From Pomacea canaliculata (taxonomy: Eukaryota > Mollusca > Gastropoda > Architaenioglossa > Ampullariidae), in NCBI RefSeq assembly GCF_003073045.1, contig NC_037594.1:25240927-25304926 (forward strand): a stretch of 64,000 nucleotides of DNA, written 5' to 3'. The notes below the pieces were generated by a model. That model saw only the letters and a list, made by a program, of their open reading frames with translations, did no database searches and was not told the DNA's origin. Shown here piece after piece: positions 13,596 to 63,597 of the stretch; positions within the stretch are counted from its first letter, which is position 1; every line of letters starts with the position of its first letter. Both the position numbers and the translations under genes were made by a program.

Positions 13596-16500
13596 ATGGC
13601 TCCCCTGTGGACCCTCGTGCTCATGATTTTGCCCTTTCTGGCCTCTTCCTTCCCACAAGGTAAGCACTGGCTCAAGTACAACTCAATTAAATTACCTAAC
13701 CCACCGGACTATTTTATTAACAAATTATAATTTTTAATCTATGCTTTTAATTTATGGAATCAACAACCATGTAGTGACTGGTGGTAGGTCTCGTATTGTC
13801 TCGTGTACGAATGGTGTCTCGTGTCTGACGTCTTGTGTGCGTCATTTGTTCCACGTCACTTGAAGCAGAAAAAGACGTCATCTGTCAGAGAAAAGCAGCG
13901 GCTCTCTAATGGCCTGATCACCAACAGCTTTAAATGGATATTTCTTAAAATAAGTGAAATCCATGAAATTAAATACAAATGGTTCCAGGTTAGACTGTGC
14001 TTATGGTATTAGCTACAAATATTATTTTTAAAGACATGAAAGTTTGAAGTAATAACCTATGTGCCTCTTGTAACCAAGAAAAAGAAACAATTGACCATAT
14101 TTTGGTAAACTATGTTAGAGAATTTTGGAAAGCATTAGAAAAGAGAATTAATAATAAATGTAAACATGTAAGTGACTTTCAATTTACTATTACACTTATC
14201 TTATTTGGATATAGTGAAAATAACTGACCGCATAATATTAAAGTTTTACACATCAATCCATATTTAGAACAAGAACTATGTATGCGGGTCTTTCTACAAG
14301 AATTATATAGACGAATGAAAGTGGAGAGAAGTACATCTCTTAGCAAGTTGGAATTGTCAACTTTTGATCAACTATGCGAACCTTATAGAAATCTTCTTAC
14401 ACCTGTGTAATTTCATATTATGGAATAACGTATGTAGTGAGAACCGATAGCTAAATGAGTTGAGAAGGAAAGAGTATGAAAACATTGTAAAAGCAGGGTT
14501 AGTTTGTGAACATTGAATGCCCTATGATACATAGTCTGTCTGTGACATGGCCAAATGTAATTTATTACCGAAATGTTTTATATGTATGAACTCTTGTAAT
14601 CATGTACTAAATAACTACTGTTGATAAAAAAAAGGGGATAAAATACCAACAAATGGGTTTTTAGTACTTGAACCAGAAGAAAAACTGTGGACATTGTATA
14701 GCATTCTGTTTAATGAATACAGGTGGTGGTAATGAGATGACAGTGTGCGCACGTGCGAAGGTGTGTGTGTGTTCGTGGGTGTGTTTCTTTTTTTCTTACT
14801 TTTGTGTGAACCTTTGTACGACTATTTGTACTGCTGTAATATACAGCCATGAAATATAGAAAAGGAAAACAATAATATAGTCAAACACACCGGCGACCAC
14901 ATACACACTGAAGTGCTGTATATGAATATAGACAAATTACGAGTCACACACTCACCGGGTGGTCCTACGTGTACAGCCCCAGCAACTACTGGGTACAACG
15001 ATACCAGGTGTATAGGTTGATGACTACACACACTATCCAATATAATTTTATTGTTTCATAAGCAGTTAAACTGTATAAACCACATGAACTAATAGGTACA
15101 TACACTGTATTGTCACATACACCGGCATGGAACTACATAAACTATTTATCAATAGCATCGTTTATTTTTACAGGAATCACACTAGTCAGTGTCAGTGTAA
15201 GTGTGTCAGTGCCAGTGTCAGTGTCAGTGAAGCTGATGGTCTCTCGGTCTGTGGGAATAACTAATGATCTCAGAGGTCGTGTGACTAATGTCAGCACCAG
15301 TGATACCAGTGTCCTCGGGTGTTGACATACCCACTGTACTCAATACGTATGGACTTGAACAGTTGTGGTTTTGACATTTGACACCATCTGTACCTTGTAC
15401 GGTTTAAAAAAAATATTTGTTAAAACACAAATCATGCAATTGCCACTCTTTGCTAGTTATCAGCTGTATCACTCTACCTATAGTAAGGTGACACTATATG
15501 CTGGCATAGTAAGGTGACACTATATGCTAGGTCATTTTACTATTTGCAGAACCATTCTCAACTCTGTCTCTCTTTCACTTATTGTCGGTAATTCTAAGTA
15601 TCGGTCATTTTAACCCATCGATCATTCTACTTATTTGTTACATACATAGACACACTCACACACAGACGAAGTGTGTTGATATATTCACTTCTGTTCATGA
15701 ACGGCACAATGTTTAATAGGTGCTTGATTCATGCAGTTCTCCATTCCCCACCTCTGACAGGACGTCGATTTTTTAGGATGATATTTTACATGAAATACCT
15801 TTTGTTGCGACAGCTTTTAATTTGTTTGTAAAACGAATAATTGTTTCTAAGCACGGGACGCGTTGTGACAACTTTCTGTTTGTGCACATGTCGATGTATC
15901 AGCCTGGACTTACTTCTCCCTCTGTCATCGTTGTGGTGGGCTTACCTGAGGGATCACAGGTAGGATGCAGCAGGTGAGGACATTCTCCAAGTCTTTGCTG
16001 AACGGCGGCGAATATGTCTCTCCACTGCCTAATGTTCATCAACAGTTCTTCTCTGTCCACCTCAGCAAGGGTAATGAACCTCCATCAAGGGTTTTACAGT
16101 GTTCTTCGCGTCACATGGTCCAGCCAGACACGCTTGTGGTGCCATCTTGTTGTTGCCAGAACGGATTCTTGTGGACCTGGGTGCTGGCAGTGCTTTATAC
16201 ATAGTCTTTGGTTTTGTGTCCCCGGTAGGAAATTCAGGGAGTTTCTTTGAGCATTCGGTCTCAAATATGTGTATCTTTTTACCTGTGTCAGCAAGCAGAG
16301 TTCGTCTCCTCCCCACCCACAGAGCAAAACGACAACTAATAGGAATTTGTGCAGTCAATTTTTAGAGGTAAAGCTGATGCGGAGAACAATTCTGTTTAGC
16401 CTGGCCATTTCTGGTGTTACTGTGGTAATGATCATTGTTTCTGCCGTGCCGCTGCCATCTTTGGACATGATGGCCCCCAGGTACTTCCAGCTGTTGATCC

Positions 16501-19500
16501 ACTGATGTAGATCTTTGCCTTCAGAGGGACCTTTCAGTGACCTTTCAGTCTCCCTGCCTGTGATGGCCTATCCCCTAGTTTACCAAGTCTGCTACTGCCC
16601 GATCGTGATCGGAGAATAGACATGATGAGATGCTTCTGGGTTTGCCGCAATTTGTAGACTAGCAGGCACAGAGACCATTTGGTCAAGTTGTATCCCCTAG
16701 TCACGTGACCCTTTGGTCAGGTCTCCCTGGCCATGTGGCCAATGACATCTGCACTGCTGGACATGAGACAAGGCTGGTCTCTAGTTATTTAGCTGAAAGC
16801 AAGCTAAGACTATGGAATATTCATCACAGCTGGTGCATTGTTCCCACTCAAAACATTTATTTACTAATGCTGTTACTCTTAATAGCCAAACACTACATCT
16901 GTCAGACCTTCCTCCTTTATGTTCTCCTCCTCCACATCTGTAGACAACTGTTTATAATTACTGATAATTGGTTGTGCAAAACAACCTATTAGAATTCTTA
17001 GTTTTTCCTGCAATGTTCGTGTCATGCCTGTCACGTGAAGAGACTGGGATCACAGAGCAAGATGTTATCTTTGTGCTAAATGTTGGCCACTTTACAAGCT
17101 GCTAATTATAGCAGAACTCGGTGAGGCTTGACTTGACCCCGTGTTTTTCTGATGAACAGGCCAAGACATTGGCGTCTGTTGCAACACCAAGAAAAGGTAA
17201 CTTGCCTTAAGTGACACAATGATGTGCGTGTTTTCTTATTTATTTATTAATTTATGTTTATATCCAACATCAACAAAAACGCTCAACAACAGGGTACTCA
17301 CCTTTAAAACATATCTTTCACCAGCGTACACGTTCTCACGGATTGTGTGATGGGAGAGGCTGTACATGTGTGTCAGTTATAAAAGAGATTTTTTTTAGTG
17401 AGTTCCAAAAGTGTTTATGATGTTTCTGGCTACTGACCTTTGACTCTTGTTTATAGGAATTTTTCCAGAGAAAAAAGTGGATTTTTCGATACCGGAAAAG
17501 ATTCTCAGGTACAAGAGGCCGGGGACGAAGAGGGTAGGTCACTGTAAGCAAACCGTTGGTCCGTGATGTCATGGGGTGGTGTTGACACACCACATGTGTG
17601 CACTACGTCACCTGTTTGTGTGACGCCAGTGGTGTGCTTATGTCGCCGAGTGCCAGAGCCCGGCTGTTGACCGGGATGTAACATGCCGCGGTATGTAGTC
17701 CCACGTTCAGCCAGCGATGTCTTGTTTGTACCCTGTTTGTACCCAATGTCTGCGGGGAATAAACAACACTCCTACTCCCCACCTCACCCCTGTCTTCAAG
17801 ATAACAACTGATGGCAATATCGTGCGTGTGGCCTCCCTTGTGTGCAGGTCGTCTTAGGGTCATAGAAATAATAAGTGGAAGCAATTTAGTCCGACTCATC
17901 TCATCTGAGAAAATTGTTTTAGCTGTTCAATAATTTGTTGCACGTGTCGGTAGAACACGAACTTGTATTACTGGACTGCTGGCAGACGATTTTTTTCCAG
18001 TTAACTACTAAAACGAGGCATGAGACTACAAAACTTCCGGTTTAGTCACATTCTTTGTTTAGGCTCACCGAGACTAACAACGGAGAACTTCGCAAGAGGC
18101 TAAGCGTTGGTCTTGGTAGACAGACAGCATCCACCTGTACACATCCGTGGGTAGACCGTTTAACGGGTGTCTTGTTTATTTTAGTTTGTACTGAAGTGTC
18201 CAAACGTGTGAGTCTTGTACACTGTCAGCATGACCGCTGATGTAGCTGGAGTTTTCAAGGTGTCAACTCTGACTACTATACTGTCAACAGCTCTGAATAT
18301 GTCTAGTATGACACATGAAGTTGTGTTGTGAGTTGTTGAGATGTTGCACGTGACTGCCATTACAATGGGAAAGGTCGCAGGTGTCGCTGTCTGTACTGTC
18401 ATGACTGACAACTGACTGGTGTCAAATGCTTAGCGTGTTCAGCTTGAAGTCAGTGGCATAGTCTAACAATCTCTTTTGTGAAGATCTTGTGAAGATACTG
18501 GCTGTCTTTTGTGAATATCTTGTGATTAACTTGTCGCCAGTCTTTTTGGTGATTTTGAGGACTCGGCATTCTTGTCATTTGTGCTGACTTCTTTCTCCTG
18601 TTTCGTCCTTTCTTTTGTGTCTGTAGCAGATGGCGCTCTTTGTTTTCATGACTTTGCACGTGTATGTCTGGCAAACTGCGGTGTTACGCAGGCCAGGTCT
18701 ACCGAGGTTGTCCCTCTGTAGTCTGTATGTAAACATCCACACACACACTCTTTATCTCTCACAGACATACACATAACATATACACACACTATCTCTGACA
18801 CACACACACACACACTTTCTCACACATATACATAAGACTCTCACACAAACTTGCTCTTTCTCTCACACACTCTGACACACACATAACACTATCTCACAGA
18901 GGTGTGAGGGAAGTGAGAGAGCGATATGAGAAATTAAACTAAAGGAAAAAAAGGGAGAAGAACAAAGTTTGGGAGGCAAAGAGAGAAAGAATGTGAAAGA
19001 AAAGAGAGAGAGAGAGAATGTAGAGAAGGGTGTGAAGGCAGGAAGGATTTTCTATGCTGACGTCATCGTTGTCCGGAAGACACTGTACAGCAGAGATGCT
19101 AGAGGTGCAAATAGGATTGCGGGCCTTTGGAAGCCGGCACAACATACATAGCTGTGCAATAAAAAATGATGGACTGTCTCCTCCAGACGGTGCACTTGTT
19201 AGCACGGACACCCCACCAGGTGCGGGGCCTTGGGCAGTCGCCCCTGCTCATCCCTAGCGCCGCCTCTGACCCCAGGGAGGAGGATAGGGGAAGTGACTGA
19301 TGCAGGGAACTGTATGATACTAACTAGGAATGAAATGTCATCATGTGACCTCACATATTGTTACTGTTGTTATTTGATGTGTATGTAACCTTCATTTCAC
19401 CTGCAGAATTTTTTCTCAAATAATGACTTTCTGACCGTTTTTCTATGATGTCAACTTATTTGGAGACTGTGAAATGTTTGCAGGGAATCCATTTGTGCGA

Positions 19501-22500
19501 GTCATTTGCACGTGCAAGCTGTACCTGTTGTCCTCGTCTCCTTCACTCGATCGTTCATTTGTCTGTTTATTCGATGCTTTGTTCGCATATTCTTCTGTCC
19601 ATTTTATTCATTGTAACTGTTCTTGGTTAATGGAAAATGTTATGACAGAGCTAATTAATGTCTAATATGTCTTATTGCGAGTAGATGGAGCTTGAGATCA
19701 TTACTAACTCATGTATGTCTCACTGCATTACTAACTCATGCTATTACCTGCAGAAGATCAAAAGTGGAATTATCAGCCGGTAAAATCACACCTGCCTCTG
19801 TTCCCTGTCCTGCAAGGTATGTCCCCCCTGACTGTCTCAGTGCTTGCTGTCAACTTGCACTCTGTCCTTGTATCCGCTTATTTACTTTTGGCATGTCCCA
19901 TACCAAAAATGTAAACTCTGTGTGTAGGCAAGTAGCTTTTCTGTGATTTTGGCTTATTTATTATTTAAATCTTTATTGTTGATGTTTTTTTAGCCATGCA
20001 ACTGAGTAAGTATTGAATGTGTCAGGTCACTAGGACTGCATGCACCAGAGACAGACTGTAATGCTCACATCAGAAACAATATCTGCTGTTCAAACCACAG
20101 CAATGTGTAAATGTCTTTATGAAATGACTGTAAAGACAGGTAAACCAAGAAAGACTTTGGTCAGTCTCTTCATGCACGTGATTACTTGTGTAGGTGGGCA
20201 GTGCAGGTGGAGCAGAGTTCCGAGTACATTGTTTACTCTGTTTACAACTGTAGCAGCAGCGGCCTCAAGCCATCAGCTTTCTGTTGCATCATTGTGTCAT
20301 GTCAACACATGGTCTAGACTAGAGTGTTGCTGATAATGTCACTGTCATGGTCATTGTGACATGACAGTACAGCAGTCTAGACTAGTATGTTGCTGATAAT
20401 GTCCATGTCATGGTCATTGTGACATGACAGTACAGCAGTCTAGACTAGTATGTTGCTGTGTGATGTCACTGTCATAGTTATCGTGATGCTCGGTGTGTGG
20501 CCATGGATACAGTGATGGACACAATCCACAACCCAGTCATTTCAAATGTTTGTAAATGTTTCAGGTACCCAGTACCTCTGAATGTTGCTGTCAGTAATTA
20601 GCAAACATTTTCAGATCACAGAAGCTGACCTTTGATATCTCCTTGCAAACAGAACTCATGGTGTAGCCTTGTTATTACAATTCTTAATATCACATTGAAA
20701 AACAGCTTTAATTGTCCTTCATTGTGTGCTAGAGTCTTCTAGAATTTTCTAGCTTCATTTGCTACTCAGCTTATTTTGCTTCTCTATGTCCTTGCCACCT
20801 TACCTAGTGCTCTGTTATGTCTTTTTTTTTTTTTTTTACAAAGTGATCACCTCAGACCATCTTCCAGTCAAGTCATTTTTCAGTGTCTTGCGATTGTGAT
20901 GCAGTAATTTGATTTTATTTGTTATTTGTAATAGTTTATTTCTCCGGAGGCAAGTGTTTTTCTTGCCTTGTTATTTATCTTAAGTTGATATCCAATTTTT
21001 TTTTTTTTTTTCACTTAATATGCATGAATTCAGCAGTTGAGATCACAGTCTGTGTTATTCTGGAGCCTTGTGTGAGTTTCAAATCCGGTATGGCAGGGCA
21101 AAGCCATAACATGGTGCCACTCCAGTTTAAGTTTTTATTAAGTATACCCCAATAAGTCAAGTTCTGAAAAAAAACAGATTGTAAGATGGTGGTTAGGATA
21201 GTTGTTAATAACAGTGGACAGAAGATTATTATTTTTCACAACTTTCACTAAGATCAATGATTCCTGTTTTAGCTATTTGACAAAATAATTTCAGAATAAA
21301 TAACATTTGTAATACTGTCAATAGATGATGACTCTTTTGTTCCTCCATACTCTGTACTTTTCTCATAAAAAGAAAGAAAGAATAAAAGAAAAAGTAAGTA
21401 AAAAACCACAAAGCTAGCTAGAGGCTGTTTTTTTTTTTTGTTAGTAAAGAGGCAGTTATCTTCCTTTGTTCAAGTATGTGTGCATTGTGTTGATGATTTT
21501 GGGTATTTATTATTATTATCATTATTTTTACAGGCTACGTGTGCTGTAATCAACCTGCAACGTGAGTAAAGTTGTCTTTATTGCTTTGAATCTTCAAAAA
21601 ACAAGTTTTCATTTATATTGGAAGATAATAAAACTGATGATTGAGTATCTGACACAGGAGGTAAAATGAAAACAGGCGCCATGCTGGTAGTCACTTATGT
21701 AATATATAGTCTGTCAGCTGCAGGAAACTAGTCGTCAAGCAGATCGAGTTGCTTCCTCTTGCTCGTTGTCTCATTAATCATCTCACTCATTGTCTTCTCA
21801 CTGTTGCACTGTTGACTGCTTTCATCTTTCTTTGTGAGACACATGCTTGCTTCAATGCAGCTGTTATTATACAAGTGATTTACCTAAGGTAATTGTTAGG
21901 TTGTTGTTGTTTATTGATTGCTGATTATTGATTCAGGAGGCCTCCTGGACGTCGGAATGGTTGGAAAAGAAATCAAGGCTATGCCCTCACAAAAAGAGGT
22001 ATGTGAGAGATTTTAGTATCCTGGGGTTAATAAAATAAGGCCACTTTCTCCCTCACACACACACACACGCGTACACACATACACACAGATACACGCATCC
22101 ATGCACATGCACAAATACACACACAGTATGAGATGATTAGATTTTACTACAAGCTGTCATGTAGCTAAACTAGCTATTTATATATTTATAAGAGTTGAAA
22201 GGTTCAGTGTGTCTAGCCTGTTAGCCTTCTCTTACTGTTACAAATTATCTGCTATAAATAATATGAAGGTGTGCTTAAGCTGTTATATAGCCTTTCTTTC
22301 TCTCTCTAGATGATGACTACTCGGATCTGCACAAAATGATTGCAAAAATCATCCGTCGCCTGGCGGAGTCTGCAGACAGACAAGACAGCCAGCTACCAGA
22401 GTCTGCAGACAGACCAGACATCAGTCACGTGGCGGAGTCGCTAGACAGATTAGATGACTCTGTCGTTGTTCCATCTTTGCCCACAACCAGCGACGACGAC

Positions 22501-25500
22501 AACCACATTCGCAGCATTTTGGGTGACTGGGAACTCGAGGACAATGACCTGGCCTCCAGTGGCTTCAAAAAACGGTTTTCAGGTATGTGATCAAAAGTTA
22601 TATAGGTACTGTCATCACTGGGCCGCCTCTATTTACTGGTCATGTCTATCAACCGTTTTACTCAGTATGCTATCAAATGTGTGCTCGCACATGCTCTCAC
22701 TCACTTCTAAACGTGTGTGGACATGTATGTGAACACAGACACATAGAATATTATAAACACACACACACTCTCGCATGCACAGTCTTGTATATCCCACCGT
22801 CTACGGGTTTGATTGTCTGTCTAGGAACTTAGCCAGTACAAATGTTCACAATTTTCTTATTGTTGTCAGGTTTTCTCAAACGTCTATACAATAAAACCAA
22901 AGACTTTAATTAACTGGTCAGTTTTAAAATATCTGTCCGAGAAAGTCAAAGACTTGTCAGGTCAGTCCTCAAGGCTGTTTGTCACACAGCTTGAAGTCAC
23001 ATCCTGTAGTCTATAGGCACAATCAACAAAACGGTAGAATGATTAAAAATAGATGTGATCGCTGAAGCAATGAACATATGTGAGCACCATCTCTTAACAT
23101 CTCATCTCTTGTCTCATAAAAAGGCAGTGGAGCTGGGGGCATGAACATGTAGGTATTTTTCCTGACATCTCTGCTACAGTACAGCCATACCAGTGTTGTC
23201 TGGTGCAGTGTGTGTGACAGCCATACCAGTGTTGTCTGGTCCACACGTCTTTGATTTTTCTCCTCTGATCTCTAAGTGCTGTTATTTCCTTTTTTGCTGC
23301 TGCTTTTTATTTGTTGTCATTGTTGTCATGTTTGTTTTTGGCTTATTTTGCAGTCTCAAACTTTTAGTCTGTCATCTCTAATGTCAAAGACATAGAGCGC
23401 CATCATGTCACATAGGCTCAGAACTGAATGATGTCCATGACATGGTGTCCTGATATATACAAGTAGTTATAAGCTGACTATAGGGCTACAATGCTACGTA
23501 GGAGCACACATAAACAATAGAAACAACAACAGGAACGCTGTTACATAAAGTACTACAGGGGAAACAAGCCGAGATGGGCAGAAGGTTGCTGGAGGTTGAC
23601 AGAATCAGACACAGAAATAATATATAAATAATATAAATATATCTGTGTAGCACATCCCTGTGTTGTGTATTGTACATAGCTATATTATATTTGTGTTGTG
23701 TATTAGACATAGCTACACTAAATATTGCTGTGTAGTACATCTCTTGTGTTGTGTATTGTACATAGCTATATTATATTTGTTTTGTACATCCTTTGTGTTG
23801 TGTATTAGACATAGCTACACTTAATATTGCTGTGTAGTAGAACAGTTGTGTATTATAAATAGCTACACTATATTTGTGTTGTGTATTATACATAGCTTTA
23901 ATTAATATATATATATACTACATCCCTTGTGTTGTGTATTAGAATAGCTATACTCTATATATATATATATATGGTACATACCTATATTGTGTATTATAAA
24001 TAGCTACACTATTTTTGTATGGTACATTTCTTGTGTTGTGCATTAGACATAGCTACACTGTATATATCTGTGTGGTACATCCCTTGTGTTGTATATTATA
24101 CACACACATATATATATTTGTGTATTGCATCCCCGTGTTGTGCATTATAAATAGCTACACTATATTTGTGTTGCACATCTCTTGTGTTGTGTGTTATACA
24201 TAGCTACACTATAAATATATGTGCTACATCCCTTGTGTTGTGTATTCAACATAGCTATACTGTATATGTCAGTGTGGTAATCCCTTGTGTTGTGTATTAG
24301 ACATAGCTACAGTGTGTGTGTATATATATGTGTTTGTGTGTGGTGCATCGTTTGTGTTGTGTTTGTTATATTTTTTGTGTTGTCTATATGAGATACTGTA
24401 TTTGTAATGGTATCTACAAGTTGCTATTGCCAAATTAAGACCAAATGTTTTTAATATTGCTCGCCAGTATGTTTCTGAAATACTGATTATACAAGATTTC
24501 ATGTGGTCCTTTCTTTAATATAATTTTGTCTGGTCTTTCTTTAATATGATAGACGATTTTGTATCATGCATTCCATTATTACACCATCATCTTCAGCTGA
24601 GAAATAGTAATAGAAAATGGCTACAGAAAGCTCTGTAAAGTCGCTTGTGACTTACTATGTGCTAGCAATATTATAGACATTTACAGTCAGAAATGCCTTT
24701 AGAAATCTAAAATGTAATTTCTTTTATTGAAATATATGGGATTAGAGAGGGATATCACCCCTCCTACCATGCAAATGAGTTTTAATTCAGTCAGTAATCT
24801 TTAAACATTGGTTAATGCTTTGCTATGATATGCTGTGCTATGAGATGTTGCTAAAGTGTGGACTGTGTGTACACAAAGCAAAACTGCCAACAATTTAGCT
24901 GAACTTACTTTCCTTTAAGATATATTTATATCTTCATTTCTTTCTCTCGCGCTCTCTCACTCTTTTTTTGTCACGATTTTTTCTTTTCTTTCTTTTTCCT
25001 TCTTTCTTAATCAACACTGTGTTTTCCTTCTTACAGGGGAGGTTAACAAACTTCAGGACATTGGTGAGTACACTTTCTATGATGTGTCTGATCAATATTA
25101 TGCTGCTGACAGCAAGTCGACTGTCTCAGCTGAAGCATGCTTACATTATACAACATATCAATGTCAATACTTTTATTATTATAAACATTTGTCCATGTGG
25201 ACACACTCACCAACACATGCAGTGATATAGCCCTAGTTGCTGGCATGGCATAAGACACAAACAAACAAACACCAACACACACACACAAAAAAGACAATTA
25301 CATACATAATCTTAAAATGCTCACACTATTTCTCACAACTAAACACAATATGACTTTGGGAGAAAAAAGTCACACTAAACTGAGATGTAAACATGAATGC
25401 TTATTTTTAAATGTTCAGATATATCACATTATCCGACAGTTGGCCTTTTTTAACGTCTACAGTACGTGAGATCATCATGCACACACACACACCTCAAAGA

Positions 25501-26027
25501 TAGCACCATACCTACAATGAAAAGATTCCTATATAACATTTCTGTGCTTAAACATGCTCTGGCTGTGTGAATGGTCTGTCCTACAGCATGATCTGACTTT
25601 GGGAATGTTCTGCCCTATAACATGCTCTTACTGTGGGAATGTTCTGTCATATAATTAACATGCTCTGACTGTGAATGTTCTGCCCTATAACATGCTCTGA
25701 CTGTGGGAATGTTCTGTCATATAATTAACATGCTCTGACTGTGAATGTTCTGTCCTATAACATGCTCTGATCGACTGTCTAAATGCTCTGCCCTATAACA
25801 TGCTCTGACTGAATGTTCTGTCATATAATTGACATGCTCTGACTGAATGTTCTGTCCTGTAACATGCTCTGACTGTCTGAAAGCTCTGTCCTATAACATG
25901 ATCTGTCTAAATGCTCTGTCCTATAACATGCTCTGACTGTCAATGTTCTGCTGTTACAGGCCGCGACTCTCAGCTCGACACGACCATCAGCAAGTCAGTC
26001 AGGGACGTCGCGTTAGCTGGTGTATGA
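13596..26027 (+). CDS. Gene A: secreted precursor with two VCCN modules (9 coding exons)
   Basis: Predicted exons are 13596-13659, 17160-17196, 17457-17533, 19754-19816, 21534-21561, 21937-21998, 22310-22582, 25037-25063 and 25960-26027. All have AG/GT borders and matching phases, and sum to 699 nt (232 aa plus TGA). Exon 1 encodes a signal peptide (MAPLWTLVLMILPFLASS, then FPQ-G) aligning with genes B to F. Exons 2 and 5 are short, go from phase 1 to 2, and each carries a V-C-C-N motif; exons 3 and 6 follow from phase 2 to 1. Basic cleavage sites are frequent (NTKKR, GRR, GWKR, LTKR, FKKR). Exon 7 is acidic and holds about three copies of a 12-13-residue ESADR-type repeat. An AATAAA lies at 26278-26283. 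Function is unknown; a peptide-hormone, neuropeptide or toxin-type precursor is inferred. Extra exons in the long introns cannot be excluded. Confidence 0.72.
13930..14640 (+). mobile_element. L1/Tx1-like retrotransposon 3' end relic
   Basis: Two plus-strand frames give text typical of the end of a LINE ORF2: EIHEIKYKWFQVRL, then a zinc-binding-like C-x2-C-x-E-x-E-T-x2-H pattern (CASCNQEKETIDHIL) and EFWKALEKRI. A noncoding tail ends in an A-rich run near 14628-14634. It is frameshifted and 5' truncated, inside gene A intron 2. Confidence 0.7.
14660..15950. other. Gene A intron 2, no recognised element
   Basis: Only short TG-rich stretches, an AGTGTC micro-repeat near 15187-15230 and a two-copy GTAAGGTGACACTATATGCT repeat (about 15484-15528) are visible. 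Confidence 0.5.
15960..16510 (-). mobile_element. Decayed RTE-like reverse transcriptase C-terminal fragment
   Basis: Minus-strand frames read SWKYLGAIMSKDGSGTAE, MARLNRI, LCGWGGDELCLL, VKRYTYLRPNAQRNSLNF and QESVLATTRWHHKRVWLDHV. This order matches the post-catalytic part of RTE-like reverse transcriptases (YLGS, GCETW, EKRIQAFE, RRKLAWFGHV). Several frameshifts; inside gene A intron 2. Confidence 0.85.
17540..19745. other. Gene A intron 3
   Basis: No further phase-compatible exon was recognised. CA/CT-rich text lies at 18740-18900. A possible old DNA-transposon end (GGCAGTCGCCCCTGCTCA, CGCCGCCTCTGACC) lies near 19190-19275 but is too weak to call. Confidence 0.4.
20313..20495. repeat. 63-bp tandem repeat, about three copies, gene A intron 4
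   Basis: TCTAGACTAG recurs at 20313, 20376 and 20439, followed each time by GTTGCTG and text around GTCATGGTCATTGTGACATG. Confidence 0.85.
23640..24390. repeat. Diverged tandem repeat of roughly 50-60 bp in gene A intron 7
   Basis: About a dozen variable copies of a unit with TTGTGTTGTGTATTA, ACATAGCTACACTATA and GGTACATCCC. TA dinucleotide runs have expanded inside several copies. Short open frames through it are chance products. Confidence 0.88.
25565..25950. repeat. Diverged tandem repeat (about 30-40 bp) in gene A intron 8
   Basis: The unit is close to CTATAACATGCTCTGACTGT plus GGGAATGTTCTGTC. Copies with an extra ATATAATTAA block alternate with copies without it. The array stops just before the last-exon acceptor at 25959. 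Confidence 0.88.
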
Positions 26028-28200: not shown

Positions 28201-30943
28201 TTAGCGTCTTGCACGTGCGCGCCAGCAGGGTCTGCAAACACAAATGTTCAAACTTGTGACAAATATTCAAGTCCATGTTGGCACGAGTCACACACAGACT
28301 CACACAAGCAATCAACTGAACAACACGCAGTCACATCCCACACTCCAACACAATGACTACACTTCTAAACACGCTCCACACAAAGACAAGCTCGAGAGAA
28401 ATTAACTTTGTTCCAGTGTTAGGGGTCCCACCAAAATCCACTTTTGCATTTTTACTATGGGACCCAGGCCGATATGCCATATGCCTCCAAGATACTCATG
28501 ACATGGGACCCAGATGTTCCCCCCCCCCCATTCGTTTGTTACTGAGGCTTTCCATCATAATTATAAAACATATTTTTAATGACCGGTACATGCACACAGA
28601 CACGTGTCAACCTATCCTGGACTGTACACAGACCGGTATTAATACCCGACAAAACGTTAACACTGCTACTCACGTGTTTCTTCCTCCAATCTGTGTAGCT
28701 GTCAACAGAAAACATTATTATGTGTACAGATAGAGTGGGGTACCTGTACCTGTACTCTACTTAATGTATCATATGCACAGATAGAGTGATACCTGTACCT
28801 GTACTCTACTTAATGTGTCATATGTACATATGGAGTAGGAACTTCTGTACTCTACTTAATGTATCATGTACAGATAGGGTGGGCTTCCTGTACTCTACTT
28901 TGTGGAGTGAAAGAGTTTAAACAACTTTAATTCCTCAAACGATTCTTCATGAACATTCCATGGTCTCAAGGTTTGTAAACTTCCTCAAGAGATAATGTAT
29001 TTAGTAGGTTCTACAGAAACAGCTTACAAGAATAAACATTAAACAAGCTGAGTAACTTTCGCGTTGTATCAATCCACTTCTACAGCAGACGGACAAACGG
29101 AATATGATGAATAGAAAAGCAATAAAAAGAGACAGAGAAAAGAAGAATTTAGGAGAACAAAAAATCAAAGAAAATTATTTACGTGGACATTTGAAGGCTC
29201 TTCTTCTGGAGTTTACTAACTGTCGAAGGACAGCCAGCAGGTAGTTGTAGTCACCGTCATCTGCAGAAACGAAGCAAAAGACAGAAAAGTCACCGACAGG
29301 TGCTGCTAAAATGGACAAAGACCACACAACCCAGTGTTTTAGACAAAACACACATGCTGATGTTTTGAACAAAAAGACGGTGAACAAATGTCTGTGGGGT
29401 TATCTGAATACATCAAAAATATTCAGACATTATAATTACAGACCCATGTATACACAAGACATTATGCATACATGTACAGTACAGAGCCATGTGTACACAT
29501 GAAATATTATAATACATTACAGAGCCTTGTATACATATGAGTGTCTATATGCAATGCCCATAGTTCCAGGTACATCACACATACCTGAGGCAAGAAGATG
29601 ACGGTTCTCTCTGTCTGGGTATTCCTCTAGGGTATCTGTGAAATATACTCACATAGAAAGTCTGTGTTCACATGTCTTGCTCTCTTTGTTGTCATTCAAT
29701 AAAACCGACATATTTACACATACAGACACAGACACAGACACACAGAGTCACAGATACACGCATACATGGACACATACAAATACATGAAGACACATTCATG
29801 TACACACAGACATACAGACTCACACCCACACAGATGTGTACATGTGTCACAGACCTGCAGGAAGCTGCTCGCGGTTGGTCATTTCCAGGTGATCTTCCAG
29901 GTCATCTGTGGACAGGTCAATTTAGACTGTGGCTGATGAAAAACTGAAATAAACTAGTTTGTGTTTGTTGAGCTAGACATTGCGATCTAGTGTGTATATA
30001 TATAGATAAAAGTCATGGTTGTTTCCAAATGTGGCGGCTGTTTCTTGGTTGTCCACTATCCCACTCTTCAGGGCCTCTTGCAGTTGCAAAGGACGAGATT
30101 CTCCTTCGTGACACAGGAATGATTCAAAGAAAGAGCAACTCTGATGTGATAAGAGAGAGTATATATCCACATTGCAGTCAATCAGGCTCAGGGAGGTGAC
30201 TTTCCCTCCAACCTGCACCCTGAAGAGTTCTGCAGCATGGGGGTCAATCACTGCATTCAGGTCAAAACAAGTTCGTGGTCTGGGGGTGCCACGCTTCACC
30301 TTTAGTTTGACCCTCATACTTTTGAAGAGGAGGTTGTGGTGGCTGTTAATATCCCTTATTGATGTTTGCTTTTCTTGGCAGTGGTCACGAGCCTCCACCT
30401 TTTGTGAGGAATTAGGGCGTTGGCCAGAGTTATTGTTTCTTTCAGCGATACGCTATCCGTTTGTCAAATAATTACTGTACAACCTGAAACCTGACAAATG
30501 TCTTCTGATCTACCCTGACACACGTCACACACCTAAGACCCATACACATACCTGTCACATACGTAAGACACATGCACATACCTGCAGGAAACTGTTCTCG
30601 TGCATTCATCTGTAGCTGCTTTTCCAGGAAATCTGAAACAAAATTCTTTCTCCTGTAGCTGCTAAAGATTTTACCTTCAGTAATGACAGAGAAAATGTAG
30701 TTAGTGAAGTTTTGAGAGAGAGGAAGAGAAAAAGTTAGAGACACACAGCGAGAGGTCGAGTGAGACAGAGACAAGCACACAACGAGAGGTCACGTGAGCA
30801 GGGTTAGGGTTAAGGTAAGATGAGGTGAGAGGTTAGGGAGAGTGGTCTGTGAGAAAGTAAACGTGTCCTCTGTACTCACCCTGTGGAAAGGGTGTAACCA
30901 CGGTGGGCAGCAGCAAAGCGAGAAGTAACCATAGAGACGACAT
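28201..30943 (-). CDS. Gene B: secreted single-loop cysteine peptide precursor (7 coding exons)
   Basis: Minus-strand exons in order are 30943-30880, 30632-30582, 29905-29855, 29635-29585, 29260-29183, 28698-28674 and 28231-28201, summing to 351 nt (116 aa plus TAA). Exon 1 encodes MSSLWLLLALLLPTVVTP then FPQ-G. Exons 2, 3 and 4 are each 51 nt, phase 1 to 1, and are mutually similar (D-x-L-E, R-E-Q or R-E-N-R, ending P-A-G or A-S-G). Exon 5 encodes an amphipathic YNYLLAVLRQLV helix, an RRR site, then FKCP. Exons 6 and 7 complete a region with Cys, GG-x-N and PCW, ending in RARR. The predicted mature peptide has two cysteines 11 residues apart. B is inverted relative to C, D and E and looks intact. 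Role unknown. Confidence 0.78.
28725..28900. repeat. Three-copy tandem repeat of about 60 bp in gene B intron 5
   Basis: GTACAGATAGAGTGGG, CCTGTACTCTACTTAATGT and ATCATATG recur about three times. Genes D and E have one copy each of the same text (near 55245 and 63700), so the expansion is specific to B. Confidence 0.8.
29975..30430 (-). mobile_element. RTE-like endonuclease/linker relic in gene B intron 2
   Basis: A minus-strand frame reads KQTSIRDINSHHNLLFKSMR, VKLKVKRGTPRPRTCFDL and FRVQVGGKV. This matches the region after the endonuclease in RTE/CR1-like ORFs (typically SDHNLV, RVRLKK, RFDLEKL, FQATIGGKF). The catalytic SDH aspartate is changed (DINSHH). It lies in gene sense. Confidence 0.75.
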
Positions 30944-32760: not shown

Positions 32761-32869
32761 ACGTTGAATAGACTCTGGGCATGTTTCAACTGTTACCTCT
32801 GTCTCCTCACTCAAGTGCAGCCATGGTCCACCCTGGGTCATGCTTCATCCCATACTGCAACCTTGGTTA

Positions 32870-45719: not shown

Positions 45720-46015
45720 TAAACTCCCAGAGAGCACTGTTGAACTCAACCGGTCGGCTGATGGCCTGAACAACTTCCAGTTGAAGACAGACGCTAACAT
45801 CCTTACAAGCAACCAGCTTGCAGACCTAACCAACTTACAAAAGGAGAGAGAGATGTAGAGAGAGACTCAAATCAGATGAGATAACATCACATTCTGAGAA
45901 GCATGAGGGTCTCGCCAACAGCTCGGAAGCCACGACACTTGACATCTGGTGTCCTCTTGTGTCTGGTCTCCACCCATGCCCACTATCTCCAGCAACAGAC
46001 AAAAAGTCGACAGTT
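45720..46015 (+). promoter_or_regulatory. Duplicated upstream block of gene C
   Basis: The block from CCCAGAGAGCACTGTTGAAC through ACAAAAGGAGAGAGA aligns with 52367-52500 upstream of D. The following GAGGGTCTCGCCAACAGCTC part aligns with all of B, D and E. It should include the promoter, but no core element is obvious. Confidence 0.45.
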
Positions 46016-46122
46016 GCAGGCGACACCCTGTTGTCTGCTGTCTACACTTCAGTCAAGGCACATCCTCGAGGTCTGACCTGACACTAGGACATCACAACTT
46101 CAGTCTAAGACTCAAGACTCAG
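46016..46122 (+). other. Predicted 5'UTR exon 1 of gene C
   Basis: The block ends in ACTCAG|GTGAGAC, the same donor as in B and E. It would be spliced to the acceptor at 46394/46395, 22 nt before the ATG. The start is set by copy conservation only. Confidence 0.5.
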
Positions 46123-49008: not shown

Positions 49009-49734
49009 GCTTTGAAAGAAGTTTTTATCGTCATTATTCTTTAGTTTGGAGGTTTTTATTTAGTGTCTATGCAGATGTTTGGTTTATATGAAACAGATGT
49101 TACTCCAAGACATTTAGTCAGGGTGTGGTCGATAGGACCTTCAGTGTCAGAGCGATGTGTGATGTCAAGTGAGACGATGTGTGATGTCAAGTGAGACGAT
49201 GTGCGATGTCAAGTGAGACGATGTGCGATGTCAAGTGAGACGATGTGTGATGTCAAGTGAGACGATGTGTGATGTCAAGTGAGACGATGTGTGATGTCAA
49301 GTGAGACGATGTGCGATGTCAAGTGAGACGATGTGTGATGTCACGTGAGACGATGTGGTCAAGGCGGGGACGATGTGGTGTTTAGTTGAAATGTATTGTC
49401 GCCTCTCTCAGCTCCCTGTCACCTCTCTCGGCTCATTGTTCTTTTTTCTGATGACAGGTACACAGCCTGGAGGAGGAAACAGGTGAGTATCGTTGTGACG
49501 TCTTGTCACACTATGATATGAGCCAGTGTATTACCTGGACAGATTTACACATGTGTCCGTGTGTGTGTGTGTGTGGCTGCACTGAGTGATCAACACAAAC
49601 ATCGATCATGTCCTGAACTCTGTGTGTGTGTGAATCGTGGACTTAAATGTTTGTCACAAGTTTGAACATTTCTGTTTTGCAGAATCTGCTGGGGCACACC
49701 TGAAAAGACTGGTGGAGACGACACCGGGTACTGA
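46417..49734 (+). CDS. Gene C: secreted single-loop cysteine peptide precursor with extended C-terminus (7 coding exons)
   Basis: Exons are 46417-46480, 46718-46768, 47742-47792, 48020-48070, 48460-48522, 49458-49482 and 49683-49734, summing to 357 nt (118 aa plus TGA). The signal exon is identical to B, D and E. Exons 2 to 4 are the 51-nt symmetric propeptide modules. Exon 5 encodes HNILLAVLREAEIARKR and the first base of a cysteine codon completed by exon 6 (TQPGGGN). Exon 7 adds ICWGTPEKTGG and ends at TGA. Cleavage after RKR would put Cys at the peptide N-terminus, with nine residues between the cysteines (11 in B and D). Where B and D have TAA, C has an AAA codon and continues to the next stop, giving a longer acidic tail. 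AATAAA at 49992-49997. Confidence 0.78.
46830..47160 (+). mobile_element. RTE/CR1-like endonuclease fragment in gene C intron 2
   Basis: Plus frames read LPRYFKSSINKAKTRTYPGA, DTGSDHELVLTNLKLKLKAK and FEFGEAARCKVSEIFKATV, the end of a non-LTR endonuclease domain (SDH box kept) and the linker after it. Gene E has the same fragment (61140-61345). Confidence 0.8.
48947..48994. repeat. (TTTG)n microsatellite
   Basis: About 12 perfect GTTT units in gene C intron 5. Confidence 0.95.
49152..49360. repeat. 22-bp tandem repeat, about nine copies, gene C intron 5
   Basis: Unit GATGTGTGATGTCAAGTGAG plus AC, alternating with a GTGCGATG variant, nearly perfect. It is not seen in the same intron of D, so it expanded after duplication. 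Confidence 0.93.
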
Positions 49735-53166: not shown

Positions 53167-56100
53167 ATGTCGTCTCTATGGTTACTTCTCGCTTTGCTGC
53201 TGCCCACCGTGGTTACACCCTTTCCACAGGGTGAGTAGAGAGGACACGCTTACTTTCCCACAGACCACTCTCCCTAACCTCTCACCTCATCTTACCTGCT
53301 CCCGTGACCTCTCGTTGTGTGCTTGTCTCTAAGTTTGTCTCTGCCTCTCTTCGTCTATCTCTCTCAATAAATGATCAAAGGTCAAAGGTCTCTCAAAATC
53401 TTCACTAACTACATTTTCTCTGTCATCACTGAAAGTAAAATCTTTACCAACTACAGGAGAAAGAATTTTGTTTCAGATTTCCTGGAAAAGCAGCTACAGA
53501 TGATGCTTCGAGAACAGTTTCCTGCAGGTATGTGTATGAGTTTTTGTATGTGACATTTATAGGTGTTCTATGTATGTAACAGGTATGTGTCATATGTATG
53601 TGGCATTTGTATGTGTAACCCTGGCGAGTTTTCCTCCTTTCAACTCTTCTTGTAGGCTGGTAGGTGTTCCAGGCTCACTGTCTCTATTCAGTTGTTTTTG
53701 GAGGAGGTCTTTAGTCGGAAGTTGTACAGGTCTTGCAGTACTCAGTCCATCGGTTGAGTACAGCATTGCTTTCTATGAGAAGGTGGCCATTGCTGTCTTT
53801 AATGACTGAAGTCTTGTGCTGCTCTGTCTTATTGAAGGTCTTTAGAAGTTGGTAGGCCTTCTTGCTGTCACCTCGTGTCGTTCCATCTGACCCCTGACCT
53901 CTGCCAGTCCCACTATGTCTCACTGATGCTCTTATCCCTCATGCCTGAGTTTTCTCCCTTTGCTGTATGAGTGTAATGTGCCAATCTTTCAGGTTGATGT
54001 TTCTTACCTTGACAGTGGCTGTGTTGTCATGTATGTGATATACATGTCAGGTCGCTACATTTACACAGCAGACACAAACTAGTTGATTTCTGTTTTTCAT
54101 CAACCAAAGTATAACTGAAGTTTGCCTTAGTCTGCATGTCAGGCATTTGTGTCTCAATGACACAGGTACATAACATGTGTATCACTCTGTTTCACTGCGT
54201 ACATGTTTTATCTATCTATATATACACTATATCACAATGTCCAGCACAACAAACACAAACTAATTTATTCCAGTTTTTCATGCGACACAGTCTAAACTGA
54301 CTTGTCCACAGATGACCTGGAAAATCACCTGGAAATGACCAATCGTGAGCAGCTTCCTGCAGGTCTGTGACACATGTACACATCTGTGTGGGTGGGGGTG
54401 GAGTTGGGTGCATATGTGTGTAAAGAGGTATCTCTGTCTGTAGGTATGAATCTCTGTGTATGAGTGTGTCTGTGCCTGTGTGTGTCTGTGTGTCTCTGTA
54501 TGTGTTTTATTGAATGACAACAAAGAGAGCAAGACTTGTGAACACAGACTTTCTATGTGAGTATATTTCACAGATACCTAGAGGAATACCCAGACAGAGA
54601 GAACCGTCAACTTCTTGCCTCAGGTATGTGTGGCAAACCTGGCACAAGGGGCATTGCATATAGACACTCATGCGTAAACAAGACTGTGTAATGTACATGT
54701 AACTATAATGTCTGATTTTAACACATGCTTCAATAATGCAATGTATGTAAAATGTATCATGTGTATAATGGCTCTGTGATGTATGTATAATGTCCCATGT
54801 GTATACATGGCTCTGTAATGTATTGTATGTATAATGTCTCAAGTGCTTACATGACCCTGTAATGTATGTATAATGTCCCATGTGTATACGTGGCTCTGTA
54901 ACGTAATGCATGTACAATGTTTAAATATTTTTTAATGTATTCAGGTAACCTACAGACACTCATGCACGCACTCTTTATGTTGTTTAAAACATCAGCATGT
55001 GTGTTTTGTCTAAACACTGGGTTATATGGTCTTTGTACATTTTAGCAGCACCTCTTGGTGACCATCTGTTTGTTTTGCTCCATTTCTGCAGCAGATGGTG
55101 GCTACAACAACCTGCTGCCTGTCCTTCGACAGTTAAAAACCACTAAATGTCCACGTAAACAATTTCTTTTGATACTTTGTTCTCCACATTTCTTCTTTAT
55201 TATGTTGATCATTATATCATTGTCCATCTGTACATATAATACAGTAAGTAGAGTACAGATACAGGTACCCCACCCCATTTGTACATATGATACACTAAGC
55301 ATGTCCAAGCTCGCTCCAAGGCTTCAGTCATTTTGTATGGATAACTTGAAAGGTGATGTGAACATGTCTCTAAAATATAAGAAATATTTTAAACTAAGTC
55401 ACAGCAAGACGATAACCTCACTTTCAACAGAGTTTAGACTTACAAATGGCACTCACTGTTTATAGTTTGCTGGGCAGAAAATTGTAAACGTGATATAACA
55501 AGTAGCTATCGTGTATATTTTTTACACTGACATTGCTTCATTAACGGTCTTTGCACGTCACGTGTCTTACAAAATAAAATTATTGTAACCGACTGTTTGT
55601 GTCTTGTTGCCACATTTTGCGGAAATCACATTCAAAATATAACAAGTACATTGTAGATCGACACTGCTTGACCGTACACATGCACACGTGTAGTGATTAC
55701 CTGCCCTTAGCTGGAGACTTAGCTCCCCTACATACTCTAGTCCAGTCTAAACGATGGCACAGTAAGCAGGACCACGTGAAGCCGAAACCACAAAGAAGAG
55801 TTATGATGTGACTTGTAGGAGCTTGGCTTCAACATTTAAACAAATTAACTTCAAGTTTTGTCTTTGAAGTTCTGGTTACTGGCACACTAGCAATCACGAG
55901 TTAATGTTGATTTAATTATTTGAATGTCTCTCAGCTCATAGTTAGCCCATTGTCACCTCTCTCATCTCATTGTTCTCTGTTTGCTGTTTACAGCTACATT
56001 GCTGGGAGGATCAAACAGGTAAGTAGCAGTCGTTACATCTTGTCACATGTAAATATATACGGTCCTGTGTTTGTTCCCAAGGTGTGGTTGTGAACATGTC

Positions 56101-56547
56101 TGTGTGCATTTATCTGTCATTAAAAATATGTTTTATAATAGGATTGACATTTTGTGTGTGTGTGTGTGTGCCCCCCAGTGTATGTACCCGATGTGTACTT
56201 GGTTAGTGACCTATACATCAGGATACACAGCTATACATCTGTTTACCAGTGTCTAGACACTAGTGGCCTATACACCAGGCTCTTTAGCTTACAAGTCATC
56301 AGTATTATGAAGACCCTCTTACCCACTACATCACTATTACCAAATGCTAGCCTCTGGCCGTAGGTGGAAACAATTGGTTTTCAAGAAAAGTGTTTTGGCC
56401 AAGTCCTTGGTACCATCGGCAACATCACTTGAACAGGACTAGCAAGTGTACTCTCTGTGTGTGTGTGTGGCACCAACAAGGACTTAAATGTTTGTCATGA
56501 GTATGGACATTTCTGTTTGCAGACCCTGCTGGCTCAGTAATGGCTAA
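53167..56547 (+). CDS. Gene D: secreted single-loop cysteine peptide precursor with a frame-broken exon 4
   Basis: Exons are 53167-53230, 53477-53527, 54312-54362, 54574-54623, 55095-55154 (or from 55092), 55994-56018 and 56523-56547. Exon 4 is 50 nt instead of 51: one base is missing after ATACC, which puts a TAG in frame two codons in. The other exons are in phase; because exons of this class are symmetric (phase 1 to 1), leaving out exon 4 gives a 91-aa open precursor (276 nt with stop). Exon 5 encodes NNLLPVLRQLKTTKCP; exons 6 and 7 encode TLLGGSN and PCWLSNG then TAA, with 11 residues between the cysteines and a terminal Gly suggesting amidation. AATAAA at 56759-56764. It may be an early pseudogene, an exon-skipped gene or a sequencing error. 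Confidence 0.65.
53620..53935 (-). mobile_element. RTE-like fragment, antisense in gene D intron 2
   Basis: The minus frame reads SKKAYQLLKTFNKTEQHKTS, IKDSNGHLLIES and VLNRWTEYCKT, matching the linker before the reverse transcriptase in RTE-like ORFs (NSKKAYQLVKDL, ILNRWTEYC). Confidence 0.85.
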
Positions 56548-60733: not shown

Positions 60734-63597
60734 ATGTCGTCTCTATGGTTACTTCTCGCTTTGCTGCTGCCCACCGTGGTTACACCCTTTCCACAGGGTG
60801 AGTAGAGAGGACACGCCTACTTTCTCACAGACGACTCTCCTTAACCTATCACCTCATCTTACTTGCTCACGTGACCTCTCGTTGTGTGCTTGTCTCTGTC
60901 TCACCTGACCTTTCGCTCTGTGTCTCTCTTTCTCTTCCTCTCTCTCACAAACTTCACTAACTACATTTTCTCTGTCATCACTGAAAGTAACATCTTTACC
61001 AGCTACAGGAGAAAGAATTTTGTTTCAGATTTCCTGGCAAAGCAGCTACAGATGAGGCTTCGAGAACAGCTTCCTGCAGGTATGTGTATGTGTTTTTGTA
61101 TGTGTGATGTATATGTATGTGTACACCTTACATTCCCACAAGAAGTCTGACACGGCCACCTGACACTCAACAAACGGATTGGTCCATAATCAACTCAACA
61201 ATATCCTGCTTCCGAGATACTTCAAATCCAGCATCAACAAAGCCAAGACAAGGACATACCCAGGCGCTGACATGGGTAGCCACCATGAACTTGTTCTTAC
61301 TAACCTGAAGCTGAAGATGAAAGCGAAGAAGCTCTCTAACATCTGTCTGTCACCGTGAAGTGTTTGTACTGTTGAAAGTAGAAAATGTTTGATGTCTAGA
61401 ATGAGGGGTGTACATCAAACTGTCCCCCAGTCCCGTGTATCTGTCCTGTCTCTGAGTTTTTATTTACCATCATTTCAATCTGTGAGTAAAACTCTTGTCT
61501 TCTGTGTCTTTGTGTCTTTGTGTCTTTGAGCGTGGAGGTCGGAGTGGACACTTCCAGAGCCTGCTGCCATTGTCATTTGTTGTTTCCTCCTACCCACCCC
61601 CCAAACACATACAGTGGAACCTCGGTTAGCGAACGCCTCGGATAGCGAATATTTCGGTTAACGAACAAAAATTTCGTTAAAAGTTTGTCTCGGATAGCGA
61701 ACAAAATTTCGGATAACGAACAGCCACGTGAACCACACGTGACCGACCATCATGTCATCATTCGCGCTCCAGACACAGTTACGATCGGTCGTTCCCTATC
61801 TATGCGCATCCTTCTTATTTAGTGATTGTTGTGCTTTATTTTAATAAGATAATCCTCAATCATGATTCCAAAGAAGATTAAGAGCAATTAATAGTAGTGA
61901 GGTAATGACAAGGAAGCGGCCAACAAATGAATTTAAAAAGGAAATGATTTCAAAGTATGAAGGTGGCATGCGTCTGTCGGATATGTGATGTCGTATTACC
62001 GAAGAGTTTTACAAAAAAGACAGAAGGAACAGACACTGGACAAGTTTTTTTCCTTTAACCTCAAAGCTACAGAAAAGGTTACCCCGATTTTATAATGTCA
62101 CGTGCTCATGGAGGGGGAATCAAAGCAGTAATTCCACCCCATCCTCACCACACCTGCTTCCATCCACGCCGTCAAAACGGCAAGTTTTCTGATGTTTCAA
62201 TGCTTTCATTAATGTTTTTATATTTAACTTCATTTAAACTGCATTATAACTCTTCTCATTAAAACAAATACCTATATAGCCTGCAACTTTCAAATATTAG
62301 CGAGTCAACAGGGGCTGGGAACCAATTAAATCTATTTCCTTTATTTCTTATGGAAAAAATTGTTTCGGATAACGAACATTTCGGATAACGAACAGTTTTC
62401 CAGAACGGATTAAGTTCGTTAACCGAGGTTCCACTGTACATACAAGTGCTGGCCATCTAACCTTTGACCTTGCCAGTCCCACTATGTCTCACAGGTGCTG
62501 TTATCTCTCATGCCTGAGTTTTCTCCCTTTGGTGTATGAGTGTAATGTGCCAATCTTTCATGCTGATGTTCCTTAACTTTACAGCTGCTATGTTGTCATG
62601 TAAGTGATGTACATGTCAGGTAACCAGACACAAACTAGTTTGTCATCAACCAAAGTATAACTGAAGTTTGCCTTAGTCTGTATATCAGGCATTTGTGACA
62701 GGTACATGACATGTGTATGTTTATCATTCTGTTTCACTATATACATACCTGTTTCATCTATATATATACACACTAGGACACCATGACCAGCTCAACAGCC
62801 ACAAACTAGTTTATTCTGGTTTTAATGAGCCACAGTCTAACTTGACTTGTCCACAGATTATCTGGAAAATCACCTGGAAATGAATAATCGTGAACAGCTT
62901 CCCTCAGGTCTGTGACACATGTACACATCTGTGTGGGTGAGGGTGGAGGTGGGTGCACATGTATGTGTGCGTATGCATGTATATAAGTATCTCTGTGTGT
63001 ATGTATCGATGTGTGCCTGTGTGTGTATTTGTTTATGTATGTATATATCTGTGCCTGTGTGTCTGTATGTGTAAATATGTCGGTTTTATTGAATGACAGC
63101 AAAGAGAGCAAAACTTGTGAACACAGACTTTCTATGTGAGTATATTTCACAGATACCCTTGAGGAATACCCAGACAGAGAGAACCGTCAACTTCTTGCCT
63201 CAGGTATGTGTGGCAAACCTGGCACAATGGGCATTGCATATAGACACTCATGCATAAACAGGGCTGTGTAATGTATTATATAATGTCTCAAGTGCTTACA
63301 TGACCCTGTAATGTATGTATAATGTCCTGTTATACATAGCTCTGTAATGTATTGTATGTATAATGTTTAAATATTTTTAATGTATTCAGGTAACCTTACA
63401 GACACTCATGCACACACTCTTATTGTTTAAAACAGCGGCATGTGTGTTTTGTCTAAAACACTGGGTTATATGGTCTTTGTACATTTAGCAGCACTTCTTG
63501 GTGACCATCTGTTTGTTTTGCTCCATTTCTGCAGCAGATGATGGCTACAACAACCTGCTGGCTGTCCTTCGACAGTTAAAAAACACTACATGTCCAC
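60734..63597 (+). CDS. Gene E: secreted cysteine peptide precursor, 3' end outside the window
   Basis: Exons are 60734-60797, 61029-61079, 62857-62907, 63153-63203 and 63538-63597 (or from 63535). All are open and in phase (277 nt, so 92 codons plus one base). The signal exon is identical to B, C and D; the three 51-nt propeptide exons are intact, including exon 4 (DTLEEYPDRENRQLLASG). Exon 5 encodes NNLLAVLRQLKNTTCP with the first cysteine. Exons 6 and 7, with the second cysteine and the stop, must lie beyond 64000. Intron 2 is enlarged by an endonuclease fragment and a pogo element. Confidence 0.75.
61140..61345 (+). mobile_element. RTE/CR1-like endonuclease fragment in gene E intron 2
   Basis: Homologous to 46830-47160 in gene C (FKSSINKAKTRTYPGADMGS), but here the box reads GSHHELVL and the fragment stops sooner. 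Confidence 0.75.
61612..62436. mobile_element. Pogo/Tigger element in gene E intron 2
   Basis: TIRs start CAGTGGAACCTCGGTTA, with TA flanks (61610-61611 and 62437-62438). The interior holds a damaged transposase N-terminus (RPTNEFKKEMISKYEGGMRL) and later frameshifted text. It shares its family with 5854-6355. Confidence 0.92.

Follow-up and report, generated by a model that had tools for sequence, protein, structure and literature searches.

Predicted secreted-precursor gene cluster of the apple snail Pomacea canaliculata with fast-changing C-terminal exons in its youngest gene pair

Six secreted-precursor genes, labeled A to F in this analysis, lie in a 64,000-nucleotide stretch of the genome of the apple snail Pomacea canaliculata (NCBI RefSeq assembly GCF_003073045.1, contig NC_037594.1, positions 25,240,927 to 25,304,926). 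This stretch is referred to as the window, and all positions below are window coordinates. The published assembly has a size of 440 Mb and 14 large scaffolds, each one a chromosome (PMC6129957). The six genes sit at the positions given by a previous reading of the bare letters, hereafter the sequence-only reading. Judging by length sums, its genes A, B, D and E correspond to our A, C, E and F, and its C and F to our D and B, in an order that the sums leave open.

Searching for reading frames that contain a methionine and end in [FY]P.G returned nine frames, namely the six signal exons, exon 2 of C, exon 2 of E, and one unrelated frame at 9.5 kb. Each of A to F was found to have the proposed signal-peptide exon with a phase-1 donor. 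The sequence-only reading had these exons end in [FY]-P-[QS]-G, which holds for A, where the codon split by intron 1 encodes Gly, but not for B to F or a seventh gene, G, located outside the window, where it encodes Asp. The remaining exons of C to F were delineated by aligning the four copies, which revealed conserved islands with AG/GT borders, while those of A and B were identified by eye from the sequence. As proposed, small exons with AG/GT borders and compatible phases follow each signal exon, with the exception of E exon 4. The coding sums are again multiples of three: 351 nucleotides (nt) in C, 357 in B, 357 in D, 276 in E (326 minus the 50-nt exon 4), and 699 in A as originally modeled. 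The exons are given below; the database proteins compared with the gene models, which carry P numbers, are NCBI predictions.

Gene A (plus strand; LOC112565174 isoform X2 = P0004, which includes exons 1 to 7)
13596..13659 (+): exon 1, signal peptide, phase-1 donor; P0004 uses an upstream in-frame ATG at 13590
17160..17196 (+): exon 2, phase 1 to 2, QDIGVCCNTKK
17457..17533 (+): exon 3, phase 2 to 1
19754..19816 (+): exon 4, phase 1 to 1
21534..21561 (+): exon 5, phase 1 to 2, YVCCNQPA
21937..21998 (+): exon 6, phase 2 to 1, basic sites
22310..22582 (+): exon 7, leucine/isoleucine-rich start, KKR site; 82/82 residues identical in P0005
23124..23148 (+): mini-exon 8 (25 nt), phase 1 to 2, GSGAGGMN; in P0004, skipped in the sequence-only model
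25037..25063 (+): exon 9, which closes the frame after the mini-exon (MGG, stop); phase 1 in the 699-nt version
25960..26027 (+): final exon of the 699-nt version, absent from P0004

Gene B (minus strand; LOC112565011 isoform X1 = P0001)
40820..40892 (-): exon 1, signal peptide
38436..38495 (-): exon 2, skipped in isoform X2 (P0003)
38172..38315 (-): exon 3, leucine-rich
37860..37877 (-): exon 4, runs into the KR site
37134..37155 (-): mini-exon 5, phase 1 to 2, GPGGIN
36803..36822 (-): exon 6, first Cys
36606..36625 (-): exon 7, second Cys, final Gly, stop

Gene C (minus strand; LOC112565263 isoform X2 = P0006)
30880..30943 (-): exon 1, signal peptide
30582..30632 (-): exon 2, 17-residue module
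29855..29905 (-): exon 3, 17-residue module, skipped in P0010
29585..29635 (-): exon 4, 17-residue module
29183..29260 (-): exon 5, leucine-rich, RRR site, first Cys
28674..28698 (-): mini-exon 6, phase 1 to 2, skipped in P0010
28201..28231 (-): exon 7, second Cys, stop

Gene D (plus strand; LOC112564663 = P0007)
46417..46480 (+): exon 1, signal peptide
46718..46768 (+): exon 2, module
47742..47792 (+): exon 3, module
48020..48070 (+): exon 4, module
48460..48522 (+): exon 5, leucine-rich; ends in KR and the first base of a split Cys codon
49458..49482 (+): mini-exon 6
49683..49734 (+): exon 7, second Cys, stop

Gene E (plus strand)
53167..53230 (+): exon 1, signal peptide
53477..53527 (+): exon 2, module; joined to F exons 3 to 7 in P0009
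54312..54362 (+): exon 3, module
54574..54623 (+): exon 4, 50 nt, out of frame
55095..55154 (+): exon 5, leucine-rich, first Cys
55994..56018 (+): mini-exon 6, 6/25 sites unlike F
56523..56547 (+): exon 7, 6/25 sites unlike F

Gene F (plus strand, cut by the window end; exons 6 and 7 at 64626-64650 and 65149-65173)
60734..60797 (+): exon 1, signal peptide
61029..61079 (+): exon 2, module
62857..62907 (+): exon 3, module, in P0009
63153..63203 (+): exon 4, module, in P0009
63538..63597 (+): exon 5, leucine-rich, first Cys; P0009 begins this exon 3 nt earlier

The precursors of C to G share one order, in which the signal exon is followed by three 17-residue modules of the type D.LE..LEM..REQLP in phase 1, a leucine-rich exon, a mini-exon (phase 1 to 2) encoding a Gly/Ala-rich stretch and Asn, and a last exon. 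The precursor plan of the sequence-only reading is thereby borne out for the signal exon, the propeptide modules (in C to G) and the leucine-rich exon, and the short cysteine-bearing C-terminus is present in B to G but not in A. The two cysteines are separated by 9 to 11 residues in C to G and by five in B. We gauged similarity by counting how many of 2000 shuffles reached the observed score. Among the modules the counts were 0 for exon 2 versus 3, 5 for exon 3 versus 4, and 290 for exon 2 versus 4, and B exon 2 bears a weak likeness to the modules (49 to 1230). Signal exons are alike (A-B 0, A-C 0, B-C 5). For the leucine-rich exon the counts were spread more widely (A-F 7, A-C 24, B-C 98, A-D 307, B-F 1186, A-B 1273, B-D 1306), and for the mini-exon they were 3 for A-B and 49 to 2000 for the remaining pairs with A or B. 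Because A and B are weakly similar to the others past the signal exon, their membership rests on that exon, the phase plan and the neighborhood.

The genes are real and have database entries, though with no function assigned, and they are more notable for their evolution than for having been overlooked. The sequence-only reading had regarded them as missed by ordinary annotation, but NCBI already lists the loci, as uncharacterized proteins. Our models of B, C and D are identical to P0001, P0006 and P0007, respectively, and that of A with mini-exon 8 matches P0004 letter for letter. The earlier 699-nt version of A could be reproduced, but the NCBI form holds the 25-nt mini-exon that it skipped and ends in ...GSGAGGMNMGG. 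P0003 is B without exon 2, and P0010 is C lacking exons 3 and 6, so that exon 7 is read in a shifted frame and the end differs. In that shifted frame C exon 7 ends in ...DVTEC, again with a cysteine, and a similar second frame was seen by eye in E. P0002 (C0Q70_09953) contains B exons 1 to 3, runs past the exon-3 donor and, by eye, ends at about 32103-32198 on the minus strand, just upstream of gene C, which suggests a read-through or merged prediction. P0009 (LOC112564664 isoform X2) consists of E exons 1 and 2 and F exons 3 to 7, the start of F exon 5 being shifted 3 nt upstream, so that two tandem genes appear as a single locus; placing F's own exons 1 and 2 there instead gives 3 mismatches in 109. 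E is thus known to NCBI through exons 1 and 2 in LOC112564664, while its exons 3 to 7 were not in any protein match returned. Since each module begins and ends in phase 1, leaving one out does not disturb the frame, in line with the in-frame sum of E without exon 4. The eight gene identifiers (six LOC numbers and two C0Q70 tags) were absent from the main texts searched, a search that did not extend to supplements.

The cluster of six stands within the window but is incomplete, since it continues just beyond with a seventh gene and an eighth copy that looks decayed. Gene G, at 68439-71907, is identical to P0008 (LOC112564662). Copy H consists of two pieces (78702-78760 and 79218-79324), and its exon 2, inspected by eye, has no AG at the acceptor position used by its relatives. 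A whole-genome DNA search with 390 nt over D exons 1 and 2 returned seven matches, all within the cluster: C, D, E, F and G at full length, and two pieces that make up H. Self-comparison of the window identified C, D, E and F as one segmental duplication with C inverted, and neither A nor B matched F at the DNA level (E 1e-5), nor did they match each other. The family would have grown by tandem duplication on one P. canaliculata chromosome. A conserved block upstream of C, D, E and F provides one further feature:

45853..46122 (+): probable 5' untranslated exon of D, conserved donor

The equivalent block ends at 31924 (-) in C, 52955 in E and 59580 in F.

Between C, D, E, F and G the signal exon is identical at 64/64 nt in all 10 pairs, its 70-nt flanks averaging 87.1% and 89.6% identity, and over exons 1 to 3 the proportion of non-synonymous differences (pN) is below that of synonymous differences (pS) in 10/10 pairs. 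In the youngest pair, E and F, exons 6 and 7 differ at 12/50 sites versus 131/1949 non-coding sites (Fisher's test, 1.3e-4; about 1.3e-3 after ten-pair correction). Eleven of the 12 changes are non-synonymous (pN 0.31, pS 0.08), no stop is created and the cysteines are retained. None of 933 ungapped 50-nt windows of E/F non-coding DNA reaches 12 differences (maximum 11), and six or more differences are seen in 25 of 1312 windows of 25 nt. The mature exons of E and F have thus changed faster than the surrounding DNA. Exons 5 to 7 of D and G differ at 31/140 sites versus 194/1474 in non-coding DNA (Fisher's test, 0.0038, uncorrected). Over exons 5 to 7, pN exceeds pS in 8/10 pairs, clearly only in E/F (0.192 vs 0.037).

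As the sequence-only reading had stated, no known family was recognized: a Pfam scan of A to D gave nothing above the cut-off, the sole sub-threshold match being a Rad26-like one to B (E 0.23). Above that cut-off A to D likewise showed no sequence match to a described toxin family, a result that does not include a dedicated conopeptide library. Searches of solved structures up to E = 10 returned no match for B, four for A and three for C, the best at 0.28, which we took as chance. Protein searches covered 5.8 billion proteins up to E = 10, and 3 of 13, 2 of 736 and 5 of 125 candidates were retained. Nine matches were P. canaliculata proteins; the only other one, P0005, a close relative, is identical to A exon 7 at 82/82 residues and diverges afterwards. 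As far as these searches saw, the family appears restricted to apple snails, which is not proof of uniqueness; because the protein search needs shared five-residue words, distant relatives could be missed.

We hold with moderate confidence that the cluster encodes apple-snail-restricted secreted precursors of small single-disulfide peptides whose mature exons are under diversifying selection. The signal-like exon would send each precursor into the secretory pathway, the phase-1 modules and the leucine-rich exon would form the propeptide, and a short product would be encoded by the two or three tiny exons at the end, together with the end of exon 5 in C to G. In A to D processing would take place at KR, KKR or RRR. 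The two cysteines of the B to G product would close one ring through a disulfide, and the peptides of B, E and F may be amidated, while the related end of A is rich in glycine and has no cysteine, and A also carries two CC segments internally. Diversifying selection on the mature exons of the youngest pair makes it most likely that the peptide acts outside the cell on a changing target, which would be a mate, microbe, parasite, predator or prey. A secreted peptide acting on an external, changing target is also favored by the combination of a frozen signal and a variable product, as described for conotoxins (PMC10561478) and for the mussel CRP-I peptides (PMC10138031).

Several observations weigh against this interpretation. 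Eight of the ten C to G pairs have no mature-exon excess (p 0.41 to 0.9998, exons 5 to 7 or 6 and 7), although for these older pairs the test says little, since their introns align badly (non-coding DNA 35-45% different) and exon 6 is misaligned in five. D/G lends weak support, because exons 6 and 7 alone give 0.083 in Fisher's test and six differences or more are seen in 120 of 887 non-coding 25-nt windows. Two annotated products, P0002 of gene B and P0010 of gene C, lack the C-terminal peptide. Gene A has no C-terminal cysteine, its cysteines forming two internal CC pairs. The basic cleavage sites of the sequence-only reading are found as dibasic sites before the C-terminal peptide in A to D but are missing there in E, F and G. 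The net charges of the seven end peptides span -1 to +6 (C +6, F +3, A and G 0, D -1). Finally, the AlphaFold2 model of D is poor (mean predicted local distance difference test score, pLDDT, 52.7); with helices at residues 21-35, 38-52 and 79-93 and no ordered structure over the end peptide, it is compatible at most with a propeptide that is helical and a product that is flexible.

Host-defense peptides, or peptides that protect eggs or mucus, are a possible alternative that we nonetheless doubt. The mussel CRP-I family is reported with an equal contrast between a conserved signal and propeptide and a variable mature part (PMC10138031), and the charges of C and F would suit such a role, but those of the set as a whole, down to 0 in A and G and below it in D, would not, and the peptides have two cysteines rather than six. 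It is unlikely that we are dealing with duplicated ordinary neuropeptide or peptide-hormone genes, in which extra copies experience relaxed constraint and not positive selection. Such genes would share the general prohormone plan, of which we found a signal-like exon in A to G, a dibasic site ahead of the end peptide in A to D alone, and a Gly at the very end in none but A, B, E and F, possibly an amide in B, E and F; both NCBI isoforms of B also retain KR and the Gly-ended peptide. Relaxed constraint, however, is expected to raise pN up to the level of pS or introns and not above it as in E/F, A to D had no Pfam match, and the features of excitatory peptide/CCHamide are lacking (PMC6617912). 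Decaying copies or pseudogenes, with C-terminal differences from loss of function, are very improbable, for although E exon 4 is out of frame and H lacks the exon-2 acceptor AG by eye, A, B, C, D, F and G retain open frames and splice sites, and nearly all E/F changes alter residues without creating a stop or removing a cysteine.

The data do not assign the products to the neuropeptide, hormone, venom or defense class. Secreted peptides that diversify in this way are known above all from venoms and from arms races in immunity or reproduction. Tentatively, and with more doubt than confidence, we propose that a lineage-restricted family in apple snails, which are not known to be venomous, diversifies by the conotoxin exon rule of a frozen signal and hypervariable mini-exons, and that its tandem copies share exons by intergenic splicing; an example would be P0009, in which E exons 1 and 2 are joined to F exons 3 to 7, bypassing E's out-of-frame exon. 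A small, fully mapped cluster in a non-venomous, well-assembled snail would offer a direct test of whether conotoxin-like evolution needs venom, and for an invasive crop pest it would also name targets for RNA, peptidomics and receptor studies.

The window also holds repetitive DNA. Intron 1 of A contains a dispersed repeat of about 140 bases (about 13760-13917); a query with 13500-14000 gave at least 46 genome-wide matches, of which at least 45 are not the window's own copy and all fall on this piece. A repeated element of about 100-300 bases occurs at 34.1, 35.4, 51.5 and 57.1 kb, one copy having a 116-residue frame with no Pfam match at E 0.01. Two minisatellites, each built of 22-base units, lie at 32758-33948 and 49131-49401, the first of which yields a long open frame through repetition. 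On the minus strand, 9503-11669 holds remains resembling a non-LTR (long terminal repeat) retrotransposon, with one frame that matches the reverse transcriptase domain PF00078 (E 1.3e-7).

Among known peptide systems, vertebrate melanin-concentrating hormone and somatostatin-like peptides were considered as candidates and dropped. The excitatory peptide/GGNG/CCHamide group resembles the present peptides in its two cysteines, Gly-rich stretch and, in some, possible amidation (PMC6617912). We rejected it, as in that source the peptide mostly follows directly after the signal (exceptions are named), whereas the cysteine peptide of B to G is C-terminal, and the Gly-Gly, or Gly and Ala, that excitatory peptides have between the second Cys and the amidated end occurs in none of B, C, E and F. 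D and G have Gly-Gly past the second Cys (KTGGDD), yet no final Gly for amidation; the shared glycines of C to F precede the second cysteine. An aromatic residue between the cysteines, another excitatory peptide feature, is absent from B, C, D, E and G, and F has one Tyr. Elevenin is likewise a short single-disulfide peptide, but a P. canaliculata elevenin is listed under another accession (UniProt A0A2T7PKS3; PMC9963005), and on that basis elevenin was tentatively dropped. The Mytilus CRP-I family shares the conserved signal and propeptide, the variable cysteine-bearing mature part, positive selection and an unsettled function (PMC10138031); it was rejected as a match in that it has a six-cysteine knottin array in the final exon, compared with two cysteines in separate exons and a modular propeptide here (PMC10138031). 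The Conus conotoxin superfamilies belong to another snail family and mainly have three exons, compared with seven coding exons in B to G and nine in A, and here the mature part is spread over mini-exons with one possible disulfide (PMC10561478). Like our precursors, conotoxins combine a conserved signal, a propeptide and a C-terminal mature part, and their mature exons are cited as having diverged roughly threefold more than the non-coding DNA that flanks them (PMC10561478), a relation comparable to the 24% versus 6.7% of E/F mature exons and non-coding DNA. In its mode of evolution, the cluster thus shows the conotoxin pattern of a conserved signal and hypervariable mature exons, of which one pair in ten carries most.

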